Of a stretch of 64,000 bases of DNA, positions 5,044 through 59,419 are shown one piece after another. Location of the stretch: contig NC_092673.1 in NCBI RefSeq assembly GCF_964355755.1, forward strand, positions 24,123,001-24,187,000, given 5' to 3'. The first letter of the stretch is position 1; each line of letters opens with the position of its first letter. A program made the position numbers and the translations under genes. This DNA is from Antedon mediterranea (Eukaryota > Echinodermata > Crinoidea > Comatulida > Antedonidae). The notes beneath the pieces were generated by a model. That model made no database searches. It was not told the origin of the DNA and was given only the letters and a program-made list of their open reading frames with translations.

Positions 5044-8000
5044 TTAACTGCCATTGTTAGCGTTTGCCGTTATCTTGCTTCGCAGTCGTTGATGCTCTCG
5101 TAGTCTGTGGAAAAAATAATAAAAATAATTCAATACTGTCACGTATTCTATTTCGTTTTTAGATATGTACAGTAGTATATATCGTAAGGTTTGCATGGTG
5201 AAATAAATATGTTTAGGTAAAGTTTGTGGTACGTCCTGTGAAAAGAATTGTTGAGTTTCTTGATGTTTCCATCAATATACTTTGATTTGTCCTATATACC
5301 GCAAACTATATACAGTAGTATACAAATTAAATGACTGTTTATGAGTGTATTCACCTAATAATGTATTTTTCTGAATATTTTTATGAATGCATAAAAAATG
5401 GCCCTGTATGTGTTAGGCATAAAAAATCGGCCCTTCCGGAATGAGACTCACGCATTATGCATGAGAGTTGGCAGGTATACAACAGAATGATAAAATAAGC
5501 TTTTGGGTTCACACTAAGACAAAAAACTTCTTTTTTCAAAACACATGGTGTATCACACACAAAGTGCATTTTTCTTTTGTATTCAAACAAGTGTAATGTA
5601 TGTAACATATTATGTTGCTGTTGCTGAAGAAATAAATTATTATGTTGTATCACTGTACCTGAGAGCATTGACCTTGATAAACCCAAGTGCATCTGTTGGT
5701 TCGTAATCGCCTTTCACGTTCATACTGTAAACAAATACATTTATGAATTATAATTACACTTATAACGCATTGATACTAGAAGATGGAGAGCACACATACC
5801 GACTCTTCCATTTATCATACCACATTATTATTGCAGTTGCAAAATAGCGCATTGGTACGCGAGAAGATTAAGAAAATGTGTGTTTATACTTTCCTTTGTA
5901 AGATAGCGCATTATATACAAGATTTCATAATCAGCACTTCAAACACAAGTAAATTGACAATCATAATTTTATGACTTACCTCACTAACTCTTCATTGTAT
6001 AATGAATATGCAGATTCTCTGCCTCGGATGTAGATTTGACCTTTGTACACAGAAAGTATCACACGTCCTGCAACGAACTCTTGGCTTTTGTTGATACAGA
6101 ATCGCGAGAACTCGCATTCTGGACTGTACCAGTATCCACGGTAGACTTGCTCCGAGAACTGTATCGAGAGTCCTTGCTTCATACGCCGTACTTCCTTGAG
6201 TGGAAAAACAATAAAAAATAAATTAAGACGAGTCCAGATATTGGGATGAGTTACTGTATATACAACAAAGTCTCCCACTAGCGAACATATCCCTTGCCCC
6301 AAAGATTTTTAATAGAGAAATTATCTGCCTCAGAGTGGGTATCCTCACACCCACTCCAGGGTTGTTATCTGCCTCAATCCTCACACCCACTCCAGGGTTG
6401 TTATCTGCCTCAGAGTGGGTATCCTCACACCCACTCCAGGGTTGTTATCTGCCTCAGAGTGGGTATCCTCACACCCACTCCAGGGTTGTTATCTGCCTCA
6501 GAGTGGGTATCCTCACACCCACTCCAGGGTTGTTATCTGCCTCAGAGTGGGTATCCTCACACCCACTCCAGGGTTGTTATCTGCCTCAGAGTGGGTATCC
6601 TCACACCCACTCCAGGGTTGTTATCTGCCTCAGAGTGGGTATCCTCACACCCACTCCAGGGTTGTTTTCAAGTGTTTTAAAACCTTCTAAAGCTCAGTCT
6701 ACACTATCAAACTTTATGTGACAAAAAAATGTGATCTGTCCATATATGGACATGATGATGTAATATCATTGCCATATTTAAGCATATCAAACTAGTGTAG
6801 ACAAAGCTTAAGTACAAATTTTGATATATCTATACAATTACAGCATTCAATGTGATAATAATTTAAAAAAATATATAACTAAAGAACAAATGTAAATGTA
6901 TACCCGATCTAAAGTGAGATTCTCAATATCCAAGTGGGCTTGCATCAGTATAGCCATGGCTGGACATTCATAAATGCCTCGAGACTTCATACCAATGTAA
7001 CGATTCTCTACAATGTCAATACGACCTATACCATGTTGACCTCTGAAAATCATTACAGAAAAATTTTTTTTTTTCAAAAATTAGTAACAGCTCAGTTATT
7101 TTCCCTAACTTACCAAGCTGTACTGTAAATGTCACAAAGTACCGCTTTAGACCACATGTCACAGAGGGATGCTTTTTACGGAAATGTTAATGTAACTGTA
7201 AAATTCAAAGAGCCACGTGTCCGTGTGTGGACTGGTATCAGTAATATTTTCACTAAATAAGAATAGTGCGATTACCAATATATAATGGATACAGAACTAA
7301 AATTTATTCGGTGTTGTAAAAATGATATAAACATAGCATTACGCTCTATTTTACTGATAAAATATTTCTCTTAAACAAATCACGTCTTACCAAATAACTT
7401 AAGAATCTTCTGTTCTTCAATTTGCATTCAAAACACAGTATCGGAAGTATAGGGTTAAAAGGTCAAACTGGGCGACGCCATTTCACAGCATGGAGCAGTG
7501 CAGCAGTCAAAACTATTAATTCCTATAGAGGGCTCAGTCAATTACTCTATCCCCCTATAGTATTAGCAGATCCCCTCTATGATTTTGACTTTCTAATTTG
7601 ATGTGGGCGCGCTACTCCATGGCTCACAATGGCGCCACCCATTAGCTCTATTCTATCCTACAATGCCTTTCGCAATTCTTACTCGCTTTGGACAAACAGG
7701 AGATTCTTGTGTTATAAGTTCTTTGGTTTTACTTACCCAATGTCATTAAGGTATGAGTATAACTCAAGTGGGTCTGTCTTGGTAACACCATCAGCTGAAT
7801 TAGATACTTTAGTAGGTACACCTGTTGAGAAACAAATGCAAAAACTCTAGTACGATAATGATGACATTGGTACAGTTATACAGTATTGATTGCCTGGGAT
7901 TTTGAATTAAGATTTCATGGAAACCACTAACTAATCCAACATTCAAATTTATTCAAAATACAACAATCACTCCAAAGATCTTTGATCCAAAATTTGTAAA

Positions 8001-26147: not shown

Positions 26148-29100
26148 TTATCTTCGTTCTGCATGAAACGCTGTTGCAATACCAAGAAGACGTTTTCGTT
26201 CAAAGGTATTTGATTCCTTTAGAAGTTTTCTCACCAGAGAAGACCGGTTTTGCAGCAAAGTATAAGCCGTATCAAACTCGACAAGTTCGCCGTCATCAAT
26301 AACCTATAAGAATTAAACATGATTAGCCATAGCCTTGAGAAAAAAAAAATACAAAAATGTGTGCGTCTGCAATGCATTATTAAAAAGAAATCGACAATAT
26401 CAATCGGCCGCCTTTCCTGCCGCGTCATTTTTGTAAATCGAAATGTCGCCCTCTATATCGTCACACAATTTGTGCACAAACGGTGGTGACCTACCGCACC
26501 ACAAGCCAGATACATTACGTCGAATAACTAATTCAACCAGAATCTCAGAATGCTCCGAAATGCAAATAGGCTAAGTGTCTTTTTAAATTTAGGCTTATGA
26601 TTTCATCTTGATTTATCGTAACAAAATGCAGCGTCACTTACCATTACCCTATCAGAATCCATAATATTGTTGAGTCTGTTTGTGATTGTAAACACTGTAC
26701 AGTATTTAAAGTGACTTCGAATCGTGGTTTGTATCAATGAAGTTATACTATAAAAATAAATCAGCGTTTAACAAAATTGTCACCATTATCTTTATACGCT
26801 ATTTTCGGTGTAGATGTGTCTTTGTTTAAATTGACCAGTTACAAAAGAATTATAGCGTATTATCACAAGCAATAACACAGAGAAGATGACAACTGTAATG
26901 ACACCATGATGAAGGGCCGCGTACTCTAACGTGGTTCATACGCGCGACCTGAAAGAACTACAGGGGAGCGTTAGTAAAATACTACGGTACAAATTTATCT
27001 TTAATTACTTATTATTATACAAGATTCCCAATCTTACTCGATAAGTAATTAACAGTATTAATTTACAATATAGATTAATATTTTAGTTACTGAATTTATT
27101 TGAAATACTTACATCTGGTCGTCGCTTTTTATCGGTTCCTCTACAATAAGAATTTTATTGCGTCGAAGAATAGCTCTTGCAAGGTAGATCAACTGACGCT
27201 GTCCGACACTAAACTGGTTTCCTCCATCTCCTACCGTCATGTCCAGCTTCCCCATGCACTCTCTTACAAACCAGTCTAATCGAACCTGAAAATAATATTA
27301 CACAAACCTATATTAAATAGGCTTGGGCACCTGTCTTCGTTTGGAAGGGTTTACTTAACTAAATTAGTCAGTCTTCAATTGCTATAATTTAAGACAAACT
27401 TAACAACTTTCTGCCTCGTCATTTTTCTTGTTAAGCGTATTACGGCTAAATTTTCATGAAGACGGTTGTAGCATAGCAACCAAAACGTCAAGACCTCCTC
27501 AACCATACTGATATTTCCTTTTAATAACACATTACAACTCTATTACTACTATTATAATATGCGCTGTATTAGTATTATTATTATATTTAAAGCAATAAGT
27601 TTGTATAAGTTTACTGGGAAGAATATATGAGCTGAAATATTGACTGTTATATTCGGTGAGGTTGAGCCTAGTTGAATTTCTTTGGAATCCTGCAAGTGAC
27701 AAGAAACTTGTTTTCTTCTTTTACATGATCCTCAATAATGTCTTAATTATATATATGCTATTGTTATTTTGCCATTAATGAAATCAATAAATGTTCTTGA
27801 AACTGAATCAGTCAATATTTCAACAATTTTCAAATAATTTCAAAAAGGCAATAATTCTATCTTACCCTTTTCAAAGCTTCCCATAACGCAAAGTCGTTGT
27901 ATTCTCCAAATGGGTCTATATTAACACGTAGTGATGTTGAAAACAACACTGGATCCTGGAATAAAACAATTTTAATTTTAACCATTCAGCCAAGTTTTTC
28001 TTTTTTAAGAAAAAAAAAGTGTTTTACAGACAATTAAATTGCCACGGCCCAAAGTCGGTAATTCACGGCTTCACATAGACATCATCGTGAATTCACTAAA
28101 AATCAAAGCAAAACAAAAATGTACGAAGGCCTATTTCTTACCTTTGGGACAATTGATATCTTTTTTCTAAGGTTATAAAGACCAAGAGCACTGATGCTGA
28201 CACCATCGATCAATATGTTTCCTGTAGGCTCCGCAAGGCGGAAGAGAGCCGTTGCTATTGAGCTCTTACCAGCACCTCTTCTACCCAATACTCCAATCTT
28301 TAAGATAAAAAGTAAGTGTAACTTATTGTTTTGAAATATAGAATAGTTAATTATATTTATTGTCATACATTCATTGTCAGGTACATCCCTAACGCCCAAA
28401 TCAGACAGCGTCGTACGACGGGGCCCGACGAGTGGTCTCGTCGGGAGAAAATTAAATATGCTTAATGTTCTTCCGACGACGACCTAAAAACTACACCCGA
28501 CGCTATCTCAAGATGTCTCGTCTCGTCGAGATTCAACTCAGACAGTACCGACGAGTCAAGACGTTCCGTCGGGCCTCGTCGTACGATGCTGTCTGAGTTG
28601 GCCTTTAGACCCAAGGCTCAAGAAACCCATATTCTTTTACGGACAGTGGCCAAGACAATGATATGGCTGTATAGACACGCTATAGTTCATCTTATGGTTT
28701 CATTGTTGGTACTTAAAACAATTTACATACTAAATTATTTGAGTTTTTATAACAGTTTTTGACAAGATTTTTTATAATATGCAACAGTCTTACCTTTTCA
28801 CGGTGTTCTATATTAAAACTCATGTTCTTTAAAACGATAGGACTTTCAGCCGAATATGACAGAAAGACATTACTGAAGGTTATGTTGCCTTCTTCAGGCC
28901 ATGATGCCGGTGGTTTCGTATATTTATTGAATCGTGGCGCTTCGGGAAATAAGTGCGTGTAGTCTGTAACTCGTATTACCGATTTCATCTATCAAAACAA
29001 AACGTATTTACTTTTTTTACAACGCACTTACATGTTTAAAGCACAAAGTGCCAACTTTACTATTGGTCAGATGTTTGCTCTACTCTGATGTAATCTGTAC

Positions 29101-32100
29101 TTCATGCTAAGAGCATTGACGCAACGTTACTCCGCAGTAGTTACAAACAATTACAAACTATACTATTGCAATTGAAGATTATTTCAGAAATTAGATAATG
29201 TTTATCTATATAAGTGTTTTACATTATATTTCCTTACTTTCTGTAATTTATTATTGTTTTGTCACATTAATATAAAATGCATATCAATACTTACCAGTTT
29301 TTCAGTATCGTTTATACCGAAAACACTTTTCTGTATTAGTTGCGACAACAGTAGTACACGGCCTACAACAATTCCAACTAAACCAACACTTAATCCTAAA
29401 ATAACAAGAAAACTGAAAGGTAAGAACTATACTATGGAAGTTAGGCCTATTATTTGTTATTTTGTTTTCTTCCAATTTCGGTCTACCATTTCTACGTTCA
29501 AATTACGTCATGTTAATTCATTATGCGCATGCGGAAATATTGGGACGCGTGTCTTCGCTCCTCACCCCGACACAGGTTTGTTGGTTTCTAGGTCCAGGGG
29601 CGGATTGCAATATAAAGACTTAGAAACCAACAAACCTATGCCGGGGTGAGGAGCGAATCGAAAGCTCCCTAAAGCTTGTTTCCTACTAGGACGTAACGAA
29701 ACGTAAGCGCGACGCAAGCAATTTAACCAATCATAAGCGATGGATTATCAGAATTTTCGCTTGTGATTGGTCAACTGGCTTGCGTTGCGCTTACGTCCTT
29801 GCGTTGCGTCCTAGTGGGAACCAAGCTTAATGTAATTAATTTGTTTTAAATCAAGTTTGAATTTTCTTACCACTTTTACCGATGAGACTAGCGAATAAAA
29901 TGCATACTATAAATACTTGTACAATACAGTAGTAACTGACAGACAATAACCTCTGTGACGCTTGATTGGCAATCCATGCCTCATTTAGGCTATCTTGAGC
30001 GTCATAGAATGATTCCAAGAAAGCATCGCGCGCTTGATGAGAGCGAATGGTGGTCAAACCACGTATTGCCTTGTCAACATGTTCATCAACAGGCAGTTTC
30101 ACTGAAAGAAACAAAAAATAAAAGCTGACTTTTTTTTTTATTATATCACAAGCGAAAGTAATACTAATAATGAGTAATACTCATGTAATACAATACGTAC
30201 ACATTTCTTCCAAATTTTGAATTTCGATTCTAGGTTTGGCAGTCTTGTTTCTTACGTACAAAATTAAAGCAAATAGTGGCACAGCAATGAATAGTAAGTA
30301 CCAGCTCATAATCATATTGACTACAACAATGCCGCACGTTAAAACCATCACTTGGATTGAACCCAACATGGTCGTGGGTAGTTCGTCTTCCATAGTACGC
30401 ATGTCTTCGTTGAATCGGCGTAAAATACAATCTACAACAGTAGCAAAAGAGTTAATAATGAAACGACGGTTATTTTTTAAACCTTTTGAATATTCCTGTT
30501 TAATGAACATTTCTATCGAGGGATAACACGGCCAATTTCCCGTAAAACGAACAAGGGATTTATGTGGTTCAACTCTACGGCACGTGGGCCCGAAAAGTAA
30601 TTTAATACACATAAGCCATGTGAACTCGTTAAGCATAAAACACAGCAATACTGGGGACACTCATCTTCATTATCAGATCGTATTAAACATTTTAAAAGAT
30701 TGTATTGAAAATATAAGTGCTTCTATTGAAGAAAATTAAGCTATGGAGACAATTTTATTACAATACCCATATAACATGTCAGCACCCGATAATTACTATC
30801 ATATATTCAAACTTTGAAAATCACAATGGTATATCGTGCAAACCAAATGTCATTACCTCCGCCAAGGAGGTTATGTTTTCACCCCTGTATGTTTGTGTGT
30901 GTGTGTTTGTGTGTGTGTTTGTGTGAGTGTGGGTGTGGGTGGATGTGTGTGTGTGTGTGAGTGTGTGTGTGGATGTGTGTTTGTGTGTGTGTCTGTGAAC
31001 AGCCTGGAGGCCACAGTTTTTATCCGATTCTAACAAAATTTGGACACAATGATCTATGCCCAAAAAGCTCGGACGAGTTCGAATTTGAGGGGAAAGGTCA
31101 TAGGTCAAGGTCACAACTAACAAAAAAACTATTTTACTGCCTAGAGACCACAGTTTTGATCTGATTCTCACCAAACTTAGCCACAATGATCAATGACACA
31201 TCATATAATTGTGGTTACATTTTGAAGGGTCGGGGTCAAAGATCAAGGTCCACCAAAAAAAAAAAAAAAAATTAAAAAAAAAAAAAAAAAACCCTCAGTG
31301 GGACTTGAACCAGCGATCTCAACTGTGAGAGGCTGGATACATAACCATTACACCACACTGTCATCCACAACTTTGTAGTGTGCAGTTAACATATTTACAC
31401 TTAGAACTAATAAAAAAAAATGTAAAAAAAAATATTCAGGGGGCATTTTATGTAGGGGAATTTTACAGTAGGCGGAGGTTTGTACTCTCGGAGTACCCTC
31501 TAGTTATTAATAAACTTACCCAGTGGTGTACTGTTGAAGAAGAGCATGGCAGTTTGAATGACTTGGTTGAACACGGTTTCATGAAGCCGTTTGCATGCGT
31601 TTAACGTGATGAGAAAAAATAGAACGCCATACAGAATTGTCGTGAATGAACAGGCCCCGATAAAAATGATAAATACTAAAGTAGAATCAGCGTTGTTAAG
31701 TTCAACGTAATCAAAAGGGTCAAGGAACTATGGAAGAAATAGAATAAATTGTTAATACTGATCTGCGAAATACGCATGTCTTCTGGTTCCCGTTGGAATT
31801 AACCTTATCTACACATAGGCATCTAGAGGCAGAGGTAACATGTAATAAAGTACATAATACACATAGACTTGTATCTCACTGACTTGCGTTAGTCAGTTAT
31901 TGTGTGTCTAGTAACGGCTGAATGATCAAAATAATACATTCACGTTATACCTTTTCTAAACATAGGCATCTAGAGGTAACATGTAATAAAGTACATAATA
32001 CACATAGACTTGTATTTCTCAGACTTGCATTAGTCAGTTATGGTGTGTCTAGTGACAGCTGAATGATTGGTTGAACGATGCCATTTCATTACATTTAGTT

Positions 32101-35100
32101 GTGAGTCTTGACACAACACATCGTGAATATTGCTTACCCTAAATTCGTTACAAGTTGTGTCGTTAAAATGATGTCTGTAACATTGCTCTAAATTTGCCCA
32201 ATGAGCAATCCAGAAGTCCGCCATAAAATACATCACCTGTGTAATAAGATAATACAATTTAAAAAAAATTTACTTAAAGTAACGTTATTTTTTAACATTT
32301 TTCTAAATAAAGTAAACTTTTTATTAGTAGAAATATCATTTTATCATCGCATTGAATTTTAGTGAAAATAAACTAATTAAATATTCATAAGAGAAATATA
32401 AAGAAATGCATATACAAATAAAGATTAGGTTTTACTTCTTTTAAACCTAACTAAAGTTTAAGTTGAAGTCACTACAAGTGTTTGCCATGCGATATTGGAC
32501 AAGTGGAGCAATATCTGTCCTTTTGTTAAAGTTTGATGTACTTTTTTGACGGCTAGAATATGTGTGAGAATGATGGTACAATTAAGATCGGCCAGGCTCA
32601 AGTCTTATTAAACCGAGTTGAGGTAGGCCTACTTCACAGAACCCAAGTAGGCGCATCATTCCTATGTAAGATGTTCGATATGTTGTGTAAAAATGTGATG
32701 TGCCCAAATATGGTGGTGATATGCTCAAATATGGTAGTGATATAACATCATCATGTCCTTATTAGGCACATCACACTTTTGTTATCACATAAACTTTGAT
32801 AATGTAGAGCTTTAGACAATGGACTCCATTATTAAACCAAAGTTTATACAAACGAAGTAGCTTTGCGTCAGGAATAGGAGCTAAGTAAATGATCACATTT
32901 TTTTTCTCGATGTTGTAGGGCAAACATCTGACCAATCACAAACGTACCTGTGTTATCAATATGCAAATGACCAAAACAGTAAGTCCGTAGTTATTGCTTC
33001 CTGCGCAGAAATAGTCTGCGTAGTGCTTGTTGTTAATCTTTTGCTCAGATTCGACACTTTTGGAATCAATAAGCTATTGTATTGAAAAAGAAATGTAGAG
33101 AATTATACACAACACGATCTTATTTTCAACATTTTGTTCAGTAATATAGAATTGGTGCTATTGCCGACTTCTTTACATTTACAAAATGTTTATTAGAAAT
33201 AATTGTGATTTACCGATGTATTTTCATTCGCATCTATTTGAATATTTGCCATGCCACTGTATTTAACATGTGGAGTAGAGTCTGCCTCTTCTTCCTAAAT
33301 TTAGAAAAAAAAGATACATTATTAATCCATCTAGAACATTATCCAGTTGGGCATGGTTGGTAGAGGTGTTGGCTATACATTAGTTATAATGTTTTAGGTT
33401 TGTCTCTATATGTTTTTGATTTGTTTGGGGGCGGGGATGGGGGAGGTTAGTTGCTTGGTTTATTTATGAGCCAAATGATTGTTTGTTGATAGTTGGTTGC
33501 TTGGTTGATTTGTGAGTCACATGATTGTTTGTTTGTTGTTGCTTGGTTAATTTTTTTTGCTCGAGTTTTGCTTAGGTATGTATCTTTGTTTTCACATTTG
33601 TCAGTTTGTTTCGGATAATACACTTTATAAACACTCACAGACTCTGCATTTGAATACACGGTGTCAATATCGCTAAACGATGAGATGAACGATTGAATAA
33701 TCCTGACGTCATAGTAGCCACCAATTATTTCTACTTTCCCCTGTAAGTGATAATGATACACTTCATATATTCTTATATTTCACAATACATGGAGTCTGAA
33801 CTTTAATCACTTGGTTATTAATGTGTAGAATAATAATTAATAAAGGCGCTTGTATTAGATGTTAAAAAGATGCGTTTTAAGTTATTTAAAAAAAATAGCA
33901 ATAGATGTTGATTTAGTAATTGTTATGTCGAGGCAAAGAATTCCAAAGAGGAAAAGCAGAGAATATAAAAGACCTTTCTCCATAGGGCCTGGTGTTTATT
34001 CTAGGAAAACCAGTAGGTTTTGATCAGCCGAACGAAGACAAGCAAGAGGAATGTAGGGAAGAAGATCAAGAAGATATTAAGTAGGTTGTTTAAGAAGTAG
34101 CGCTTTAAAAGTTACCTTGGTGTAATTCTATAAGTTACATAGGCCTACCTGTTTTAAAACAAGTATTCTATCCACTTCTCGCATGAATGAAGGACGAGAT
34201 GTCGTCATGATCCGTGTTTTCTTTTTAAGATATCCCATTATACCACTGTAAAAATAACATTAAAATAATTATAAGACTACTAAAGCTTGGTTTCCACCAG
34301 GACGCAAACGCAAGGATGTAGACGCAACGTAAGTGATTTGACCAATAACAAGCGACGGATTATTCGAACTGTCGCTTGTCATTGGTCATCAACACGCTTG
34401 CGTTGCCTTTACGTCCTTGCGTTGCGTCCTAGTGGGAATCAAGCTTTATTGAGAGAAGTAAATACAATCAAGTAATTGACAAACTATCATATTATTATGA
34501 GAACGTATCATGGCAGTAGATTGTTAATAGAAGAGTAGGGTAAGGGCCTAACATTGTGCTAGGCCTAATCTAATGTTCTCTCTTTTGCAGTGTATTTTTC
34601 AAAATTGAGCCGGGTGGAAGTATTTTGCATCTTAAAATCGTGATAATAAAAAAATAATAAATTAAAAATAATAGCACATTTATACAATAGATGTATAGCG
34701 TAATGGACGATGGTGATTATTTTTACTTCTACTCCGAAGTAATTGTATAATAATAATAAATAATAATACGTAATAAAAAATGTATTGATGTTTTGTTCAA
34801 ATCTAGTGTAGTTATACTGTAACACCAAAAAATCCTTAAGGAAAGAAACCTAAAATCCAATCTTACTTTTCAAATATATATCTAGAAGTGGTTGAATCCA
34901 TGTATGTAAATGGATCATCAAGTAGGTAAATATCAGCATCTTTGTAGAGTGCTCTTGCTAGGTTAATCTTTGCTTCTTGATCGATTGCCAGTCGCAATTT
35001 GCTCGTCATAGATAAATCTTTTTCAGGGAGGCTGTTGATGAACTTGAAAAAAAAAATCGATATTGCTGCGGTTAATGTACATGTTAATAGTTCGGGGCTC

Positions 35101-35638
35101 AACAAAGTGTCCTTTTTATATAGAGGTTTCTCCTGAATAGAGGTTAACCGTAGTGTTGAGGCATATTGGCCTTTGTTTGGGACAGTGACGAATTATAAGT
35201 TAACTAACTTACTACAGCCTTCACAAGTGATAGGCCTCATGCCTGACACTATATTACATAATTTGCATACTATGAAAAATTATGTCACATGTGGAGATAC
35301 AGTATATTATGTATACTGTACATATGGTGAATTAGTAGAAAAAAGTAGACCAAAAATATCTCTAAATTTAACATACCTTTGTAAGCAACACCGTTTCTAT
35401 TACTTTAAAGTATCGACATTCATCGTATTGTTTTCCGAACAAAATGTTTTGTCGAATTGTCCCCGGAAAAATCGATGGTTTTTGTGAGACATACGCAATG
35501 GTACCTTGAATCTTTATGTTGCCTGTAATGATGGGTATCTCTTGCAATAGAGCCATAAGGAACGCTGTCTGTACCGAATAAATATAGAGAATATCATAAT
35601 ATTATGTTTCATGATCTTAAAGGGTAAATAGACCAAGG

Positions 35639-35676
<38 letters not shown>

Positions 35677-38600
35677 CTAGCTCGCCGTCTATTCGATATT
35701 CATCCGCAATGGTACCTTGGATGGGTGTTTCTTGTAATAGAGCCATATGGAACGCTGTCTGTACCGAATAGAAGTAGAGAATACTATTAAGTTGCATATT
35801 CTTAAAGGGTAAATAGACAAAGGCTAATAATATAACTAGCTCGCCGTCGATATTCATCCGACAGTTTAAGAAACAAGAAGGTAAAACAAGACCCGGAGAG
35901 CATTAACCAATACAGTTCAATCAAACTACAGTACCTTCATAAGAATAAATGACAACAAAAGTGTGATGTGCCCAAATATGGTGGTGATATGCCCAAACAT
36001 GGTAATGATATGACATCTTCATGTTCATATATGGGCACACAAAGTTTGATAGTGTAGACAGAGCTTAGGAATTAATTATCTTCGGTCAAACGAAGGCACT
36101 CTACTCACGTACAATATTAGTTTCTTTCTAAAATGTACGTTAGTTGTTTATTTTGTTGATAAACTACCTAAATACTTACCTTTCCTGAACCACTCGCTCC
36201 AACCACGCCCAATATATCCCCAGAACATATATCAATCGCTACATTTTCTAAAGCAAAGTCATCTGAATTCTGTAGACGTCAATGTATTATGTTTTATTAG
36301 GTATAAATATATATTGGATCGTATTACGTCATTAGTATATATATAATGAACTTTATTTTAAAATAAGTAATATAAAGGGTGGTAGCACTATTTATGGTCC
36401 TAACAATAGCATAATAAATCACTTCAATAAGGAGCCTTTCGATTTGTTTTGGTCGTCGTAGACCTACTGTATATAATCCGCTAATATGTTTATCGACAAA
36501 ACGAGCCAGGAAGCATGCACACATGCACACAATTAAATAACATGATGCATGGAGGTATAAAAATATTTTTATACCTCCATGCATGACGTAACTAGGTCCT
36601 AGCTCGTCGCAAATCGCTTCCATTGTTATAGTCGCATAAGTAGTGTAATAACTATAATAGATCATTGGCTTCCTAATGAAACAATTGGGAATTACATATG
36701 TCCCTTTACCTCCCATTTGCATCCTAGCTCATTCACAACGATTCGTGGCTCTTCCTTCGATTCCTTTGAGTACGAATATCGAGTACTGTCTTCTGATAAA
36801 TGCTCCTTGTCATCGAGTAGCATAAATTCCTGACAATAAACAAATAATATCAAATATTATATGGATATAATGGATAGATAATTTCAAAGCTCTCCTCTGC
36901 CGAAGGTCTCTTCGGGTCGACGCTCAATTTTCTATCCAAGACAGAGGCTCAGATGGACCAGTACATCCACTGGGATAACCCCCCGCCCCTTTTTTCCTGA
37001 AAGTGCACACTATCCGGTAGTCTGGATTCCAGACGGAGGTTTGTTGTCTAAATATTATTTTAAAAAAAATATTTTTGCACATATGACGTTTCATACATAT
37101 ACTACTTGAGCTTGGATACTCCAGATATTTCCAGACAAAAATCGAAACGTTGGCTGGTGGACTAACATAAAAAAAGACAATAAATACAGACTTGGAGCAA
37201 GTCTAACTTTCCGGATGTGTTCTACGTAACTTCCAGTTTTAAGTACTTGTTCGAGAAGTCTGTTCTCGTACCACAGTTGAGGATGGCATTGGAACTGTAA
37301 AACACTATAACATATTTAATATCTTGTTATAAATGAGGACCATCGTCTAAATGAAATGTTTGTTTTTATAATGTCAACCGTTGATATTCGTACGAACACA
37401 AAATTACATTAAGACACATTAACTGCCAGAGCGTGTGATGTCAAAACAGTGAGTCGGCGTCGGACGAATATCCACGGCGAAAATGAACTTACCTCTATTT
37501 TATCACATCCTAGAATGCATTCATTATAGAGGTATATCGCTTTTGGAAAATACTCCAACACCGTTGGGCGAATAATATACGATAAACTAAAAATGACAAA
37601 TACATGTGAGATCATGTAACGTTCCGCTGTTACAAAGTAGATAGTCAGGTGAACAACTTCCAAAAGTCGATGTCCAAAGAACGTGATCACCATGGCAATG
37701 AACTTAAATATTGCAGAGAGCAGAACAGCAGACAATTCAGATCTAAAAATTGTAGAGAAGTTCATTTAGACAACCAACAACCATTTAAAAGATGCAAATT
37801 AAAGCAATTTCAGGGTACGGTTTTTACCTATGTTAAGTGAATATAGTGTATTTTCCTATTTAGGGTTTTGCGATTAGGCCTAGGCCTACCTCATTTTCCA
37901 AATTGAGGTAAGATCATTGATCAAATTACATTTTATAGCTTTGATCGTCTGAGAATAGTTCGGGTTTGAATCCAATATTTTAACTACCCCAGTACAAACA
38001 TCAAGGAGGATGCGTATTGCGGTACAAAGTGCAGATTACAATGATAGAATAGATCACTCTTTGGACGTAAGGCGTGAATTGACCAATCACAAGCAACAAT
38101 TCGGATAATACATCGCTTGTGATTGGTTAAATTATCTGCGTTGCGCTTACCTCCTAGTGGGAGCCTAGCTTAATGTAGACAAGGTGTTCACTATACTTAC
38201 TCGCGAATCTTTTTGATTATTTCAGAAAAACTTCTTTCTAATACAGACATTTTGATCACACGCATTGATGTAAATGCTTCAGATAATATTGATAATCGAT
38301 ATTTTCTTATTCTTGCAGCCCTTTCTCTAATCAAATGAAATATACAGGTAACAATAAACAATGTTTAGTTCTACAAATTATGAAACTTATAAATAATTAC
38401 ATTTTATGTTTAAATACGGTAATAAATTGGTACTGCCCTAGGCCCATTGCTATGTGGATTAGTATATAGTAGAACCCATATTAAGTGGACATCCTCAGGA
38501 CGAAAAAGTGTCCCTGAATAAGGGATCACAAAAGAGGGACTGTGCAGTAGTTATAGTAGGCCTAGTTAAAATACAGTACAGAACACGGAAATAAAAAAGC

Positions 38601-41600
38601 TAATTCGGGCCTACAGTAAATAAGGTGGCTTAAATTATTAGATGATAAAAAAACCAACCTGTAAATAATATGCATTTTCCTTTGAAGAGTTTGAAGAGGT
38701 AAGAATATTATAAGAACTATACCAAAGCCAAGTAGCGTATACCCCCATGACAATCCAACGTAGTAGATTAAAATAAAAATTGACACAATACAGTTAATTG
38801 GAGCAAGCCACAGATACGGAAATACCGTTGATATCTAGAAGAAAAAAATAAAGTTTATCACTTTTTAAATTAAACATTCCCGATTCTTATAAGTTTCAAA
38901 TTTATCATTAAAAATATACCATTGTGGAAAGTACATTTTTTTTATTATGGATAACTTGCTGAAATGCAATACAGGTTGTTTAGTGGTTTTGTCATGTATT
39001 ATGTGGGCCTATCACTTGAAACGGTTTAGGCTTAGCCTATACTTTGAAAACATACCTTATTGAACTTTTCCGTTTCATCAACAAGGGCGGAGTTCTTCAA
39101 AATAGTTGAGTTGCTTAACTTTAGAATCTTAAGAAAAACGAATACAATTTACGGTTTATTAGTTTTATTATTGGTTCTGAAGATACATTATCTGCAGCGT
39201 ATTAACTGTAGCTTTATGTTTTATCATGACTTCGAGAACTTGTGGTTCAAAACTGTTCTGTTTATACCCTTCATATAAAGATTTAACTAAAATTCAGGTA
39301 ACTGGTTTCTTCGCCTTAAAAAAAACATGTGTATAGGCCTAATTACAATAATATTGTTGTAGGTTGTTGCAACCGACAAGAGCCAATATAAAATGTAGGC
39401 CTACTGGGTCAAAGTGGCCCATTAATTTTTGAATTTGTCCCCTCCAAACTCAATAGTGTCCATACGTTTAGAATTATTTAAATAGCAGAAATACTTTTAA
39501 AATAAAATAATAAAATGAGTTGTGGCATCACCTTTTTGTAAATTAGCGATCTACACGCTACTTGAATTTTCCTTCCAAAAAGTCGATTGTAAAATACGAA
39601 CGGTTCACGTATTACGTCTGGTACCATGATAGATGTGGCTAGAAAAGCTAAATGCAATAAGGAGGTTCCAGCTGTAGGCGTTTCACCATGCTCAAATAAA
39701 TACACAAACATGGAAAACAATATCGGTTGGCACAGTGTAACCATTTCCTACAATTAAAAAGACAAATAGTAATTTCAGGTGAAATAACGATGGTGAGACC
39801 AGTGGCGTAAGGCAGAGGCCTGAGGCCCCTGGTTTAGGAAGCCCTCCAAGTTCCAACGCTGGAAGCCTCGGGCGTTTTTAGCCTTTTCGGCATATTTTAG
39901 TCCCTAATGCCTATTTTTTCGTAAGAGGTGAATATAAATCTATAGATAGGCCTACGTGATATTTCCATACTATTTAGATAAGGAATGAACAATTATTATA
40001 ATGCACTGGACCATAATGCTATGTGTGGCCAGTAAGTAAGCTTAAAGAATTTATTTAGGATCCATACGAAATGTATTTACAGTTTATAGGATGTCTCTTT
40101 CATGCAAAATACGAAGTTCAAGACTAAAACCATTGATTTAACAATTTTAGTTAGTTTGATGTAAAGACTTCACCAGCATCACAACACCGTGACTCTCATC
40201 GAGTTAGAACATAAATAACTTTCCACTAAAAACTATCGACTGCGGTTATTGATAGAAACTGCAAAAATGTGCAGAAATTGGAAAATTATACTAACCATAA
40301 AAACTCCAAGTACATTAAACCACAGCAATTGAGGAAAGAACGCATGGAATATAGACCGGCGTAGACTGGGGCGTGTTCCTCTGTCCTTTGCCTTCTCTTG
40401 CTCATTATCCCATTCGCTTTATAAACGATTGTAGAAAATTGGATTTACATTATTAGTTGTAGAAGATGCAGTGTCATAATGGCTGTGAGCCTTTACTGGC
40501 TAAACCTAAGGGCTCCGGAGCTTATGGGGGCCCCTGAGCAGTGCCCAGATGAAAAACAGGCAATCAAATATGTCGAAAAAGGCTAAAAACCCGAGGCCTT
40601 CGGCGTTGGATCCTAAACCAGGGGCCTCAGGCCTCTGCGTTACGCCACTGAAGATTAGTAGTAGTGGTTTATGACTAGCTGGGTTACGTATGTCGTATTC
40701 GTCCTTTCTGCAAATAACAACTCTTTGCATGCTTTTTTCATTAGGTTTACTATGATACCCTTTGTCTTAATCAGTGTCAAGATGATTTCTGCCTCTAAGG
40801 TAAGGATTTGGAGTTATGCTTTACGGTTAGGCCGATTTGACCCAAAGAATAAACAATCTGAAATGTGAATATACCTTTCTAATTCGTGTACAAGACATTC
40901 CGACGATACGTCTGATGGAACATTGTCCAGGTGATCCTGTGTCAATGTTTCATTAGATCCAGTTAGAAACAAGTGTAAACACCATCTTCACAAGAGCAGA
41001 CAACACAAAGTCACGTGAAATTAATGTCATGTATGAAATTAATAAAAGAGGAAAAATAAAAGTGGGTAAATCATACAAAAAAAATGCAATGCTCCTTGTG
41101 TGTGTTTTTTATGGTGAACAAACTATTAGATAACATTATACAGTTGCATGCATTCTGACTTGTGTAGGACAGGTGTAGTATTTCAATAACAATGGATATG
41201 GGACTATTATATATAATAGTTTTATCCTCGGAATTTTTAAAGGTTTTGATAAAATGTATGTGTATAATTCCAGATTTATTCTATTATTTGATATAACAAC
41301 AGCGAAGTTCCAGTTTAACAATCAACTTAAAAAAAGCTATTTATGGGGTACTTCATTAAAGCGTGTAATGAAAATAGGCCTAAGTATGGCTTAAGCGCTT
41401 GAAGACGAAATAAATTTATATCGTGTCCTATTAACCCCTCTCCTCGGCCCACAAATCTCTTTCTGCCTTTAAATACCGACAAAGGTAACATTTGTACTAA
41501 ATATTCATCTGGATTGTAATGTTCTATATTTCAAAGGTAGCTTTTGATTTTACGTTATACCTTAGCCTTAGCTCATTTACAATACTTCTTCTTCTTCTTC

Positions 41601-41940
41601 CCTAGACTCCTGGTCAAGGGCATTTATTTGTACAGCACATAGACCAGCGGCCCGAAGTACATGTAGGCCTATATATTATTTACAAAAATTGATTGATACT
41701 GAAAAATTTCCTAGAATTAAAAGGGCTGTATAAATAGTGTTTGATAGGCCTTTCAAACAAGGGAGTGTGAAGGAATGGTTAATGTAGGTTTAATTGACTA
41801 CTATTAATCTAGTATGATTATTGTTGTTTCACACGCACGTCCTGACCCCACCCACCTTTACCTACTTACCCAAAAGTTATTTTCAGCAAAGCGTTTGCTT
41901 TCTCTAGTCGGCTTGGCTTTAACGTCAAATTACATTCCAT
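26148..41940 (-). CDS. ABC transporter subfamily C (ABCC4/MRP4-like), complete, 27 coding exons, degenerate NBDs
   Basis: Membrane transporter of the short ABCC type (TMD1-NBD1-TMD2-NBD2, no TMD0). Exons, minus: 41940-41870, 40985-40875, 40416-40296, 39747-39532, 39127-39056, 38834-38659, 38326-38201, 37742-37493, 36829-36710, 36269-36180, 35568-35377, 35042-34867, 34245-34149, 33740-33639, 33294-33214, 33073-32948, 32236-32138, 31727-31520, 30431-30201, 30101-29871, 29395-29295, 28988-28794, 28297-28142, 27955-27866, 27285-27113, 26747-26642, 26303-26148. Total 3,873 nt, 1,290 residues plus TAA (human ABCC4 1,325); all GT-AG, phases consistent. Start: first ATG after an in-frame stop. NBD1: Walker A GASGSGK (445-451), Q-loop [12 protein letters not shown], Walker B IYLLDDP; signature LSGGQ is LAIDQ (533-537) and the H-loop His is Ser590. 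NBD2: Walker [10 protein letters not shown] (1069-1077), intact FSVGQRQ; Q-loop Gln is Lys1116, Walker B Asp is Glu1195 (Glu1196 kept), H-loop His is Asn1227. The reading frame is unbroken, so not an obvious pseudogene. Substrate unknown. Confidence 0.93.
28394..28603. mobile_element. palindromic MITE in ABCC intron
   Basis: Left arm GCCCAAATCAGACAGCGTCG TACGACGGGGCCCGACGA matches the complement of the right arm ending GATGCTGTCTGAGTTGGCC (about 35 bp, few mismatches). The GC-rich interior carries further CGTCGGG words. Lies between NBD2 exons 22 and 23. Confidence 0.8.
29553..29657. repeat. long inverted repeat (hairpin)
   Basis: TTCGCTCCTCACCCCGACAC then AGGTTTGTTGGTTTCTA pairs with TAGAAACCAACAAACCT then ATGCCGGGGTGAGGAGCGAA. 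The arms are about 40 bp around a 25-bp loop. In the ABCC intron between exons 20 and 21, directly beside the family B copy. Confidence 0.8.
29670..29830. repeat. hairpin MITE, family B (copy 1)
   Basis: TAAAGCTTGTTTCCTACTAG GACG at the left and CGTCCTAGTGGGAACCAAGC TTAA at the right form a near-palindrome. Inner words are ACCAATCATAAGCG and CGCTTGTGATTGGTCAA. Related copies occur at 34281, 38055, 48897 and 57970. Confidence 0.85.
30852..31505. repeat. composite repeat with (TG)n tract and tRNA-Glu-like segment
   Basis: Opens with ATTACCTCCGCCAAGGAGG TTATG, then a 110-bp TG-rich microsatellite. Two diverged copies of a GGCCACAGTTTTTATCCGAT / GACCACAGTTTTGATCTGAT segment of about 125 bp follow. 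Next are poly(A) runs, a minus-strand tRNA-Glu-like stretch (about 31367-31290; A-box TGGTGTAATGGTTA, loop CTCTCAC, B-box GGTTCAAGTCC) with a broken anticodon stem, and the end GGCGGAGGTTTGTACTCTCG. In the ABCC intron between exons 18 and 19. Confidence 0.6.
32679..32815. repeat. hairpin MITE, family A (copy 7)
   Basis: Family words AATGTGATGTGCCCAAATATGG, ATATAACATCATCATGTCC and CACATAAACTTTGATAATGT with AGAGCTTTA at the right. The left end is eroded. In an ABCC intron. Confidence 0.75.
34281..34448. repeat. hairpin MITE, family B (copy 2)
   Basis: Complete: TAAAGCTTGGTTTCCACCAG and complementary CCTAGTGGGAATCAAGCTTTA, with the central CGCTTGTCATTGGTCA palindrome. In the ABCC intron just upstream of exon 13. 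Confidence 0.85.
35493..35866 (-). repeat. tandem duplication of the 5' part of ABCC exon 11 with its intron flank
   Basis: Two adjacent copies, 35493-35705 and 35706-35866. Each contains the acceptor and start of the NBD1 exon (TAF-MALLQE, then QGTIA) plus the flanking GTACCGAATA, CTTAAAGGGTAAATAGAC and AACTAGCTCGCCGTC. The transcript-proximal copy (35706-35866) keeps the acceptor and reads [19 protein letters not shown]. It then runs into unrelated sequence, having lost the Q-loop half and eight internal codons, so it is a dead partial exon. The functional copy is exon 11, 35568-35377. Confidence 0.8.
35641..35674 (+). repeat. (TA)n microsatellite
   Basis: About 17 TA dinucleotides between the two exon 11 copies. 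Confidence 0.95.
35950..36067. repeat. hairpin MITE, family A (copy 8)
   Basis: GTGTGATGTGCCCAAATATGG, ATATGACATCTTCATGTTC and AAGTTTGATAGTGTAGACAG AGCTTA. The left terminus is truncated. In the ABCC intron between exons 10 and 11. Confidence 0.75.
36545..36584. repeat. perfect 40-bp palindrome
   Basis: ATGCATGGAGGTATAAAAAT followed directly by its exact reverse complement, no loop. It sits between weaker inverted flanks (ACGAGCCAGG / CCTAGCTCGT), so it may be the centre of a MITE. In the ABCC intron between exons 9 and 10. Confidence 0.9.
36925..36990 (-). repeat. SINE fragment
   Basis: The minus strand contains GGGGGGTTATCCCAGTGGAT GTACTGGTCCA, similar to the GGGGGTTACCCCGGTGAACTGG segment of the SINE at 53764-54117. 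Confidence 0.35.
37017..37205. mobile_element. hAT-like MITE, family C (copy 1)
   Basis: TAGTCTGGATTCCAGACGGAG at the left and CAGACTTGGAGCAAGTCTA at the right. The flanks ACTATCCG and ACTTTCCG match at 7 of 8 bases. Inner words CATATGACGTTTCATACATA and TACTACTTGAGCTTGGATAC are shared with the other copies. In the ABCC intron between exons 8 and 9. Confidence 0.8.
38055..38173. repeat. hairpin MITE, family B (copy 3, left end lost)
   Basis: ACCAATCACAAGC...CGCTTGTGATTGGTTAAA...GCGTTGCGCTTACCTCCTAG TGGGAGCCTAGCTTAA. The left TAAAGCTTGG end is missing. Confidence 0.7.
38467..38550. repeat. MITE, family E (copy 2)
   Basis: TAGTAGAACCCATATTAAGTGGACATCC at the left, AAAAAGTGTCCCTGAATAAGGG in the middle. 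The right end (GTGCAGTAG) is decayed. Confidence 0.5.
39800..39910. mobile_element. hAT-like MITE, family D (copy 2, truncated)
   Basis: CAGTGGCGTAAGGCAGAGGCCTGAG start, CCCTCCAAGTTCCAACGCTGG body. Lost after TATTTTAGTCCCTAATGCC. Confidence 0.7.
40469..40650. mobile_element. hAT-like MITE, family D (copy 3)
   Basis: CAGTGTCATAATGGCTGTGAG at the left and GGCCTCTGCGTTACGCCACTG at the right, in the opposite orientation to copy 1. No clean target duplication remains. Between ABCC exons 2 and 3. Confidence 0.75.
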
Positions 41941-42862: not shown

Positions 42863-42957
42863 CATGACTAAAAAGCTGATAATAGTCTATTTATACGTGT
42901 ATTACGTAATTGATCATTACGTCATAAATATCCTATTAACCTTGCTAAAACCAAAAT

Positions 42958-43030
42958 GATCAGTTAGCTCAGTCGTCTGAGCGTCGTGTTAACAACACGT
43001 ATGTCGTGGGTTCGATTCCCACGCTGGTCG
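42958..43030 (+). tRNA. tRNA-Val(AAC)-like cloverleaf, probably a SINE head
   Basis: A full 73-nt cloverleaf can be folded. Acceptor stem GATCAGT / GCTGGTC (all seven pairs, two G-U), D-arm GCTC-GAGC, anticodon stem TCGTG/CACGT (one T-T mismatch at the base), loop TTAACAA with anticodon AAC at 42991-42993, variable ATGTC, T-arm GTGGG-TTCGATT-CCCAC. No T-run follows; transcribed-repeat-like sequence continues, so a SINE head is more likely than a cellular gene. Confidence 0.5.
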
Positions 43031-43215
43031 GTGGAATAGAGTTAAGGCTATGCGAGCCACTGTGTTTGGGGTTCACAGATAATACGTCCCCCTTTCCACC
43101 ACACATCATGAGGCGACAACATCAATGCATCTGGTGATGTGGTGGAAACGACCCCAAAAGGCTGTGGCAGGGCCTTAGTCCTGAGGCAGGGAGAGCACAT
43201 TTACCATCTTTTTTC
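42958..43215 (+). repeat. tRNA-derived SINE
   Basis: The tRNA-like head is followed by a non-tRNA body (CACCACACATCATGAGGCGA, ATCTGGTGATGTGGTGG hairpin, CCTTAGTCCTGAGGCAGGGA) ending in a short T-rich tail near 43215. Confidence 0.5.
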
Positions 43216-58173: not shown

Positions 58174-58255
58174 GTTTCAAATCGGAAACGAGTCATCATC
58201 CACATAGTTACTTACTGTCAGCATATTCAACGTATCCCCGACGACAGCTTGCATC
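58174..58255 (+). other. receptor 5' UTR, part of coding exon
   Basis: Follows a pyrimidine-rich acceptor (ATCTTCGTCTTTCAG) ending at 58173 and leads to the ATG at 58256. Confidence 0.5.
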
Positions 58256-59419
58256 ATGAATGAAAGCGTCACCAACGAGAACGCACAAATACACGCCGTC
58301 CTAAAATCTATGACGTACACAACTGGAGATGAGCTACTATTGACAGTTGTTATACCAATATTGTTTATCATCGGTGTAGTTGGAAACGTGTTCGTAATTG
58401 TCGTTTTCATACGTTTCAAATCCATGCGAACGGCGCCTTATGTGTACCTATTTACACTTGCCGTTGTAGATTTAATGTTCCTGCTGATAGTTGCGCCTGT
58501 CCAATGGATCATGTACTTATCAAGTCCTATACGTGAAGACTTTTCAGGATTGGGTGACGTTACCTGTAAATTCTATCTCGTCATTCAAGATTTTTGTGTA
58601 CTTTTTTCTACCGTGATTATTGTTTGTGTGACGATTGAACGTTACATGGCAATATGTCACCCAATGTCATTAGATAGGTCAAAGGTGTCAAAAAGGTCAA
58701 GTATAACATGTATTGTCGCTAGTATTGCAATCCTGATTTATAAAATCCCGGTATTGAGTTTAGCAACATTAGCCGAGTACCCCGTACTAGCGAACATGGA
58801 TGAAAACATCACCTCGCAGTACGACGATTTTCCGGACTATGTTCAAGTGTGTTTATACTGCAATGGATTCAAGTCACCCGCAACGTGTAATAGATTCAAC
58901 AAATCCTTATATTTCGATTTGATACTTAATGTGATAGTTTTACCGTGTGTTTCTACACTGTATATCCGTATACTTTATGTACTTTGTAGTCGCGAAAATA
59001 TTTCGGACACCGGCGGGTCATCCGCACATCTGAAACAAATGAAGGTCCAAAGTGCGTGTATGATCGTCTTAGTGGTACTCGTATTCATCATTTGTACGAT
59101 TCCTTTCCGAGTATTTTCATTTTTTTATAACCTATATGCTAACAAACATTCAAGGCCGATTGTTGACGAGGCTACACTAAGTTTGATAATTTATATTAAC
59201 AGGACTTTGGTATTTCTGAATTCAGCAGTAAACCCGATAATCTATCATATTGTTAGTAGTAAGTATAGGAGCGCTTTTAAGAAAGGCTTATTGTTCAAAA
59301 GAGCAGGTAGATCGCTGACTAAGTCTAAGATGACAAGAGAAACGACACTTTCAAGTAAAGGGCGGCAAACTATTCGAGGCGAAGAACATAACAGACGACT
59401 AATGAGTTCTATACATTGA
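58256..59419 (+). CDS. rhodopsin-family (class A) G-protein-coupled receptor, probably neuropeptide-type
   Basis: Seven-helix plasma-membrane receptor of 387 residues in one uninterrupted exon, stop TGA. Landmarks: GVVGN with Asn44 (TM1), LAVVD with Asp72 (TM2), Cys104 at the top of TM3, IERYMAICHP with an ERY version of DRY at 128-130, Pro230 in TM5, FIICTIPF with Pro283 in TM6 (the usual CWxP Trp is Thr), and NPIIY at 326-330 (TM7). TM4 lacks the conserved Trp. The N-terminus is short (about 28 residues) without signal peptide, with an NES glycosylation site at residue 2. The second extracellular loop holds three cysteines, one presumably bonded to Cys104. The basic, Ser/Thr-rich tail (345-387) suits arrestin or kinase regulation. 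Overall form is like invertebrate FMRFamide-receptor-like or TRH-receptor-like peptide receptors. The ligand cannot be told. The ATG is the first in the exon and gives a normal TM1 position. Confidence 0.95.
   Translation: MNESVTNENAQIHAVLKSMTYTTGDELLLTVVIPILFIIGVVGNVFVIVVFIRFKSMRTAPYVYLFTLAVVDLMFLLIVAPVQWIMYLSSPIREDFSGLGDVTCKFYLVIQDFCVLFSTVIIVCVTIERYMAICHPMSLDRSKVSKRSSITCIVASIAILIYKIPVLSLATLAEYPVLANMDENITSQYDDFPDYVQVCLYCNGFKSPATCNRFNKSLYFDLILNVIVLPCVSTLYIRILYVLCSRENISDTGGSSAHLKQMKVQSACMIVLVVLVFIICTIPFRVFSFFYNLYANKHSRPIVDEATLSLIIYINRTLVFLNSAVNPIIYHIVSSKYRSAFKKGLLFKRAGRSLTKSKMTRETTLSSKGRQTIRGEEHNRRLMSSIH

Follow-up and report, generated by a model that had tools for sequence, protein, structure and literature searches.

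What becomes of an ATP-driven exporter when the motifs of its ATP sites are replaced while the gene around them stays whole? The question is raised by a locus of the crinoid Antedon mediterranea. The window analysed here is a stretch of 64,000 nucleotides (C4:24123001-24187000) from a genome of 354 Mb in 18 contigs, and it contains a gene of the ABCC family, hereafter W, at window positions 26148..41940 on the minus strand. W is intact and carries altered ATP-site motifs, as described in a first-pass annotation of the window and confirmed below. On balance, we consider it moderately probable that W is a duplicated ABCC4-type gene that purifying selection has kept after the loss of its ATP-driven pumping machinery.

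Structure of W and state of its ATP sites

The first-pass annotation had joined 27 exons in frame, with consensus splice sites, into a protein of 1,290 residues. An independent rebuild from the six-frame reading and the raw sequence agrees with this exon table. The exons run from position 41940 down to 26148, all 26 introns are of the GT-AG type, and the 27 exons contain one terminal stop, no internal stop and no frameshift. Among the ABCC members with a solved structure, to which this comparison applies, the best PDB match of W is MRP4/ABCC4 (residues 7-1279, 754 bits), followed by MRP1 (502 bits), while ABCC8 and ABCC9 reach 364-368 bits, about half the MRP4 score. Pfam searches with the two halves of the protein detected ABC_membrane (35.3 and 83.8 bits) and ABC_tran (56.2 and 75.5 bits) domains, all four above the curated cut-offs. 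The domain order is thus that of a full transporter, with a transmembrane domain (TMD) and a nucleotide-binding domain (NBD) in each half (TMD-NBD-TMD-NBD). A crude hydropathy scan gave 14 segments in W and 13 each in human ABCC4 and in the neighbouring paralog P1 presented below, mostly at similar places. By these features and its 33.9% identity to human ABCC4, W is a full transporter of the ABCC4 (MRP4) type.

Composite site 2, formed by the NBD2 Walker motifs and the NBD1 signature, is normally the hydrolytic one; in W it has neither its signature, its Q-loop Gln, its Walker B Asp nor its H-loop His. The NBD1 signature reads LAIDQ (residues 533-537, 34977..34991; here and below, positions of W features are window positions on the minus strand) for LSGGQ, the S-G-G core being replaced by A-I-D. 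In NBD2, the Q-loop Gln is replaced by Lys1116 (28142..28144, the last codon of exon 23), the Walker B Asp by Glu1195 (27139..27141) and the H-loop His by Asn1227 (26678..26680). In site 1, the NBD1 H-loop His is replaced by Ser590 (34197..34199), the only loss among these catalytic residues at that site, where the Asp typical of ABCC proteins (LLDDP) stands in place of Glu. A hydrolytic ABC exporter is recognized by at least one complete catalytic site (Walker A, Walker B with Glu, Q-loop, H-loop and the opposite signature), and neither site of W is complete in this sense.

Six further ABCC genes of the same genome were modelled (P1, C5a, C5b, C1a, C5c and C1b), and canonical motifs are present in all six models wherever the models reach them. 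All six have LSGGQ in NBD1, the NBD2 Q-loop Gln and the NBD1 H-loop His, and the Gln and the His are also present in human ABCC4. The Walker B Asp of NBD2 is found in P1, C5a, C5c, C1b and the human protein, the C5b and C1a models ending upstream of it. The NBD2 H-loop His is found in P1, C5c, C1b and the human protein, and the C5a, C5b and C1a models end before that position.

Other parts of the ATP sites are retained. The NBD1 Walker A motif, GASGSGK (445-451, 36180..36200; exon 11 opens with the codon for Thr452), fits the consensus, with three of seven family-invariant positions changed (V447S, S452T and S453A). The NBD2 Walker A motif, GRRGAGKS (1069-1076, 28262..28285), also fits, with one of nine invariant positions changed. 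This change, T1071R, falls at the place of CFTR Thr1246. The NBD2 signature FSVGQ (1171-1175, 27199..27213), which faces site 1, is intact, as are the Walker B motif and Q-loop of NBD1, and the catalytic Glu1196 of NBD2 is present. All the residues named in the first-pass annotation are thus exactly as it gave them. We found further changes in both D-loops (SAVD to TYMD and ANVD to KSDD, the final Asp being retained in each) and in a pair of residues across site 2, which in CFTR are Arg555 and Thr1246. This Arg and Thr are invariant in the family members compared here, and they align with Lys540 and Arg1071 of W. Asp536 occupies the position of CFTR Gly551.

The intracellular loops that connect the two types of domains, which we take to be the carriers of coupling helices 1, 2 and 3, are altered as well. 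The first loop, in exon 5 (39056..39127), is six residues shorter at the family motif GQ.VNLLSND than its counterparts in human ABCC4, C5a, CFTR and C1b. In the second loop, Ser-Val-Leu (283-285, 38239..38247) replaces the family-invariant Tyr-Ala-Trp, and in the third, DCILR (812-816, 30418..30431, with the first base of codon 812 in exon 18) replaces GRILN. CFTR retains GQ, CWE and GILNRF at these places. The loop losses would argue against any ATP-driven cycle of W, and not just against fast turnover.

Might other exons restore the canonical motifs, as the first-pass annotation had asked? In tblastn searches of window positions 20001-46000, the number of modelled exons matched, out of 27, was 25 with P1, 22 with human ABCC4, 19 with C5a and 17 with C5c. 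The best match outside the exons in that interval had an E value of only 0.83, and the sole non-exon match with a canonical motif string was at chance level (E = 41). A motif scan of the three minus-strand frames of the gene body found no intronic SGGQ, TH(Q/R/G), DEA, PQD/E or AHR; its one intronic string, ISHGK at 32495, is directly followed by stops. No credible exon restoring LSGGQ, His or Gln was thus detected by the two approaches, and we rejected this explanation.

Two observations concern the introns of W themselves. In intron 10, the beginning of exon 11 recurs in shortened form (35700-35760, minus strand) beside a TA repeat, and this copy is too short to substitute for exon 11. Three intronic stretches (about 29680-29830, 34280-34470 and 37990-38170) have translations that resemble one another by eye (LTNHKR..IIR..ACDWS) and are probably copies of one dispersed repeat.

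A canonical sister gene and selection on W

Searches of the genome with W and P1 revealed the paralogs used above; only the best candidates were scored, so that their number is a lower bound, and there are more ABCC-like places in the genome. Their models were built with a custom spliced protein-to-DNA aligner. P1 (C4:24206242-24225862, plus strand) codes for a canonical ABCC4-type protein of 1,304 residues. In its model, the end of exon 5 was taken from the human-guided alignment, which gives a better donor and the full family length, and the remainder from the W-guided one. Identity to human ABCC4 is 49-53% for C5a, C5b, C1a and C5c, and 39.9% for C1b, which is more distant and served as outgroup. 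The C1a model contains two frameshifts and that of C1b one, and those of C5a, C5b and C1a end before the end of NBD2. Before alignment, 380 residues at the start of C1a and 190 at the start of C5c were removed as unreliable. Two recent duplications are visible among these genes. C5a and C5b are adjacent ABCC4-like genes (C5:21016001-21056000) of 92.5% identity, and C1a (C1:8900001-8920000) and C5c (C5:1700001-1720000), on different contigs, are 94.1% identical.

P1 is the sister of W. The two genes are divergently oriented, their start codons lying 41 kb apart, and their products are 44.7% identical. They group together with 100/100 support in two trees, computed with or without CFTR and midpoint-rooted for drawing only, in which they form a branch of their own. 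CFTR falls outside, and we thus discarded the idea that W is a relative of CFTR. Each of the 26 introns of W has a same-phase counterpart in P1, 24 of them at the same alignment column and the remaining two within 1 and 3 columns, and P1 has one intron more. The match of its introns with those of P1 indicates that W arose by DNA duplication. The same correspondence supports the exon joins around the altered motifs, and it excludes mis-splicing in the model of W. P1 differs from W in retaining LSGGQ, VTHQ, IIPQ, LDEATANVD, VAHR and the intracellular-loop motifs. The two branches are very unequal, with 1.19 and 1.18 changes per column for W in the two trees and 0.19 and 0.21 for P1, that is, about six times fewer.

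Is the loss in W specific to the ATP-site motifs? We counted changes at 315 invariant alignment columns, on which human ABCC4 and the five paralogs other than W and P1 agree, with a minimum of three of four groups represented and with motif boundaries that we set ourselves. W has changed 132 of them and P1 65, in all domains. At ATP-motif positions the numbers are 21 of 56 in W and 1 of 56 in P1, compared with 33 and 17 of 123 at the other invariant NBD positions (Fisher test, 21:1 vs 33:17, p = 0.008) and 78 and 47 of 136 at invariant TMD positions (p = 0.001 relative to the motifs). This comparison between sisters, on which we relied rather than on tests within W, shows at the level of sequence that the ATP-site motifs of W have lost protection relative to those of P1. 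Within W, NBD2 motif positions were more often changed than other invariant positions under our first definition (8 of 22 vs 4 of 48, p = 0.007).

W is nonetheless constrained. Mismatches between W and P1 amount to 62%, 43% and 28% at third, first and second codon positions, respectively. Synonymous change is near saturation, 0.635 of the 208 four-fold degenerate sites being mismatched. In codon models of 1,206 codons from W, P1, C5a and C5c, a ratio of nonsynonymous to synonymous rates (dN/dS, omega) of 1 on the W branch was rejected with free branch lengths (twice the log-likelihood difference, 2dlnL, 27.2) and with equal time on the W and P1 branches (204.6). Under equal time, the optimum gave an omega of 0.095 for W and 0.037 for P1, and t = 1.5 gave 0.226 for W and 0.087 for P1, so that W exceeds P1 about 2.6-fold, a ratio steadier under this assumption than the absolute values. 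W is thus under net purifying selection, with an estimated omega of about 0.10-0.23 averaged over the whole branch since the duplication. The first-pass annotation had taken W to be maintained and had named a dN/dS near 1 across the gene as the finding that would speak for a pseudogene; with omega = 1 rejected and no lesion in the 27 exons, its view holds. When branch lengths were left free, saturation made the fits by region unstable. With a common t, omega of W was 0.109 in TMD1, 0.103 in NBD1, 0.128 in TMD2 and 0.041 in NBD2. The slowest domain of W is therefore NBD2, and since its omega is 0.031 in P1, it is held nearly as tightly as in the sister, though its Q-loop Gln, Walker B Asp, D-loop and H-loop His have been replaced.

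Neutral evolution was simulated in 200 runs starting from the P1 coding sequence, with substitutions only. Losing all seven catalytic residues took a median of 1.09 substitutions per site, with a lowest value of 0.15, and by then the reading frames had acquired at least 28 stops (median 70), compared with none in W. Because of this difference, the catalytic losses most probably took place under protection of the frame. Together with the intact frame and splice sites and the rejection of omega = 1, the simulations led us to reject the notion that W is a neutral pseudogene.

Possible roles of W

When a human full-length ABC protein has a degenerate site, this is described as always being nucleotide-binding site 1 (NBS1), where ATP remains bound (PMC7756269). 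ABCC4 itself combines a degenerate site with a consensus one (PMC10910009). In open CFTR channels, Arg555 and Thr1246 form a bond across site 2 (PMC5626490), and the G551D change, which affects the second Gly of LSGGQ in NBD1, deprives CFTR of almost all response to ATP (PMC9304199). MRP1 with Asn at the NBD2 H-loop shows wild-type-like transport, and a change of its NBD1 H-loop His has little effect (PMC7756269). A single change of this kind need not be fatal, and the loss of the signature is the heavier hit to W. Given the effect of G551D and the presence of Asp536 together with Ala and Ile in the W signature, site 2 is very likely dead or nearly so, by analogy.

The scenario that we favour would run as follows. 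DNA duplication of an ABCC4-type gene yielded W and its canonical sister P1. With the signature, Q-loop, Walker B Asp, H-loop, D-loop and Arg-Thr pair altered (the latter now Lys540 and Arg1071), composite site 2 would be able neither to close nor to hydrolyse ATP efficiently. Site 1, made of the Walker A, Q-loop and Walker B motifs of NBD1 and FSVGQ of NBD2, could still hold one ATP, and W may bind ATP there without cycling. Because the intracellular loops are altered too, the NBDs and the membrane domains would not be expected to cycle together. W would then most likely be a membrane protein that is static or changes slowly, such as a regulator, a receptor or a passive pathway, rather than a pump. 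The first-pass annotation had proposed a channel, facilitator, regulator or slow transporter, and a channel, a receptor, a regulator or a slow pump would each be compatible with these data. The sulfonylurea receptors ABCC8 and ABCC9, full ABCC proteins that do not transport and regulate potassium channels (PMC7756269), offer a possible model.

W can be set beside several known systems. It shares domain order, length and Pfam domains in both halves with ABCC4/MRP4 (PDB 8sx7, 8bjf and others), which keeps a consensus site 2, whereas W has site 2 dismantled and has lost residues of three intracellular loops. P1 shares all 26 intron places and phases and differs by its canonical motifs. Among exporters with a degenerate site (MRP1, TAP, BSEP and Pdr5), Pdr5 resembles W in having lost several motifs within a single composite site, its NBS1, but human full-length proteins are always degenerate at NBS1 (PMC7756269) and W at NBS2. 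It is possible, and we suggest it tentatively, that W represents an ABCC protein of inverted asymmetry, with site 2 and the coupling loops gone and site 1 conserved under selection, which would act as a permanently ATP-clamped, non-cycling regulator, receptor or leak.

A number of points weigh against the view that W was retained after losing its pumping machinery. W is a gene predicted from genomic DNA. It forms a long branch, which the tree tool flagged as of unsure placement. With synonymous sites near saturation, omega depends on the model and on the assumption of equal time, and the excess of W over P1 is weakly supported with free branch lengths (2dlnL 4.9). Under a second definition of the motifs, the contrast within W was significant neither in NBD2 (10 of 31 vs 13 of 74, p = 0.12) nor in NBD1 (11 of 25 vs 20 of 49, p = 0.81). 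The first-pass annotation had called site 2 the one hit hardest. This is true of the catalytic residues, of which site 2 lacks the signature, Q-loop, Walker B and H-loop ones and site 1 the H-loop one only, but it does not extend to all motif positions, since the difference between sites 2 and 1 is not significant with either definition (9 of 27 vs 4 of 19; 11 of 27 vs 4 of 14, p = 0.51). Lastly, the tolerance of MRP1 to Asn at the NBD2 H-loop (PMC7756269) and the retention of Glu1196 and of both Walker A motifs would leave room for slow hydrolysis.

The last two points bear on the possibility that W is a slow transporter, which pumps with residual hydrolysis at site 2 through Glu1196 or at site 1. 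The intactness of FSVGQ and of the NBD1 Walker B and Q-loop and the slow evolution of NBD2 are in line with it. Nevertheless, the joint changes of S-G-G to A-I-D, of Gln to Lys, of both D-loops, of the Arg-Thr pair and of the loop residues make this unlikely in our opinion.

Selection might instead have ended recently, leaving W an intact but dying copy. The 2.6-fold higher omega of W under equal time and its 132 altered invariant columns, twice the 65 of P1 and spread over all domains, would fit such a decay. It is quite unlikely, nevertheless, given 27 exons free of stops, frameshifts and broken splice sites, the rejection of omega = 1 over the whole branch, and simulations that never showed fewer than 28 stops by the time of the seven losses, most of which probably occurred in a protected frame.

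A comparison with CFTR/ABCC7, an ABCC protein outside active transport as W would be, brings up the idea of W as a pore, with a gate that either responds to tuning by ATP at site 1 or needs no ATP to open. In NBD1, both proteins have Ser in the H-loop and a D-loop of the form PF.Y.D. At 15 NBD1 sites where both proteins depart from the ABCC4s, W bears the CFTR residue at six (2.5 expected, p = 0.008), including the H-loop Ser and D-loop residues, in a test made post hoc. Sharing in NBD2 was not significant (3 of 13, p = 0.25), and convergence of the whole protein on CFTR was rejected (13 of 75, 9.5 expected, p = 0.10). CFTR has an R domain with PKA sites between NBD1 and TMD2, and no R[RK].[ST] site was found in the short linker of W (residues 600-685). 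Furthermore, CFTR has a hydrolytic site 2 (PMC5626490) and has kept the NBD1 LSGGQ and lost the NBD2 signature, in reverse of W, which keeps the signature of site 1. As W also stands outside the CFTR lineage and has lost the intracellular-loop motifs that CFTR retains, a CFTR-like channel is the least probable of these alternatives.

If our favoured reading is right, W provides a natural test of what an ABC exporter can lose while selection maintains the remainder. It would depart from the pattern of human full-length ABC proteins, in which degeneration is confined to site 1 (PMC7756269). In humans, CFTR and the sulfonylurea receptors have left pumping, and W would have done so by an independent route, via site 2. 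The canonical sister P1, 44.7% identical and with nearly colinear exons, allows a direct comparison of the losses within one genome. Among the literature matches listed, which are open-access and leave most subscription papers outside, there was no report of such a protein.

Other features of the window

Three further elements lie in the window. A tandem repeat at 6227-6721 contains three overlapping open frames of more than 120 residues. ARAGORN detected a tRNA-Val (aac) at 42957-43031 on the plus strand, which may be either genuine or a repeat that resembles a tRNA. Between W and P1, a single open frame at 58208-59419 on the plus strand codes for a rhodopsin-family G protein-coupled receptor of 403 residues (Pfam 7tm_1, E = 2.3e-31).

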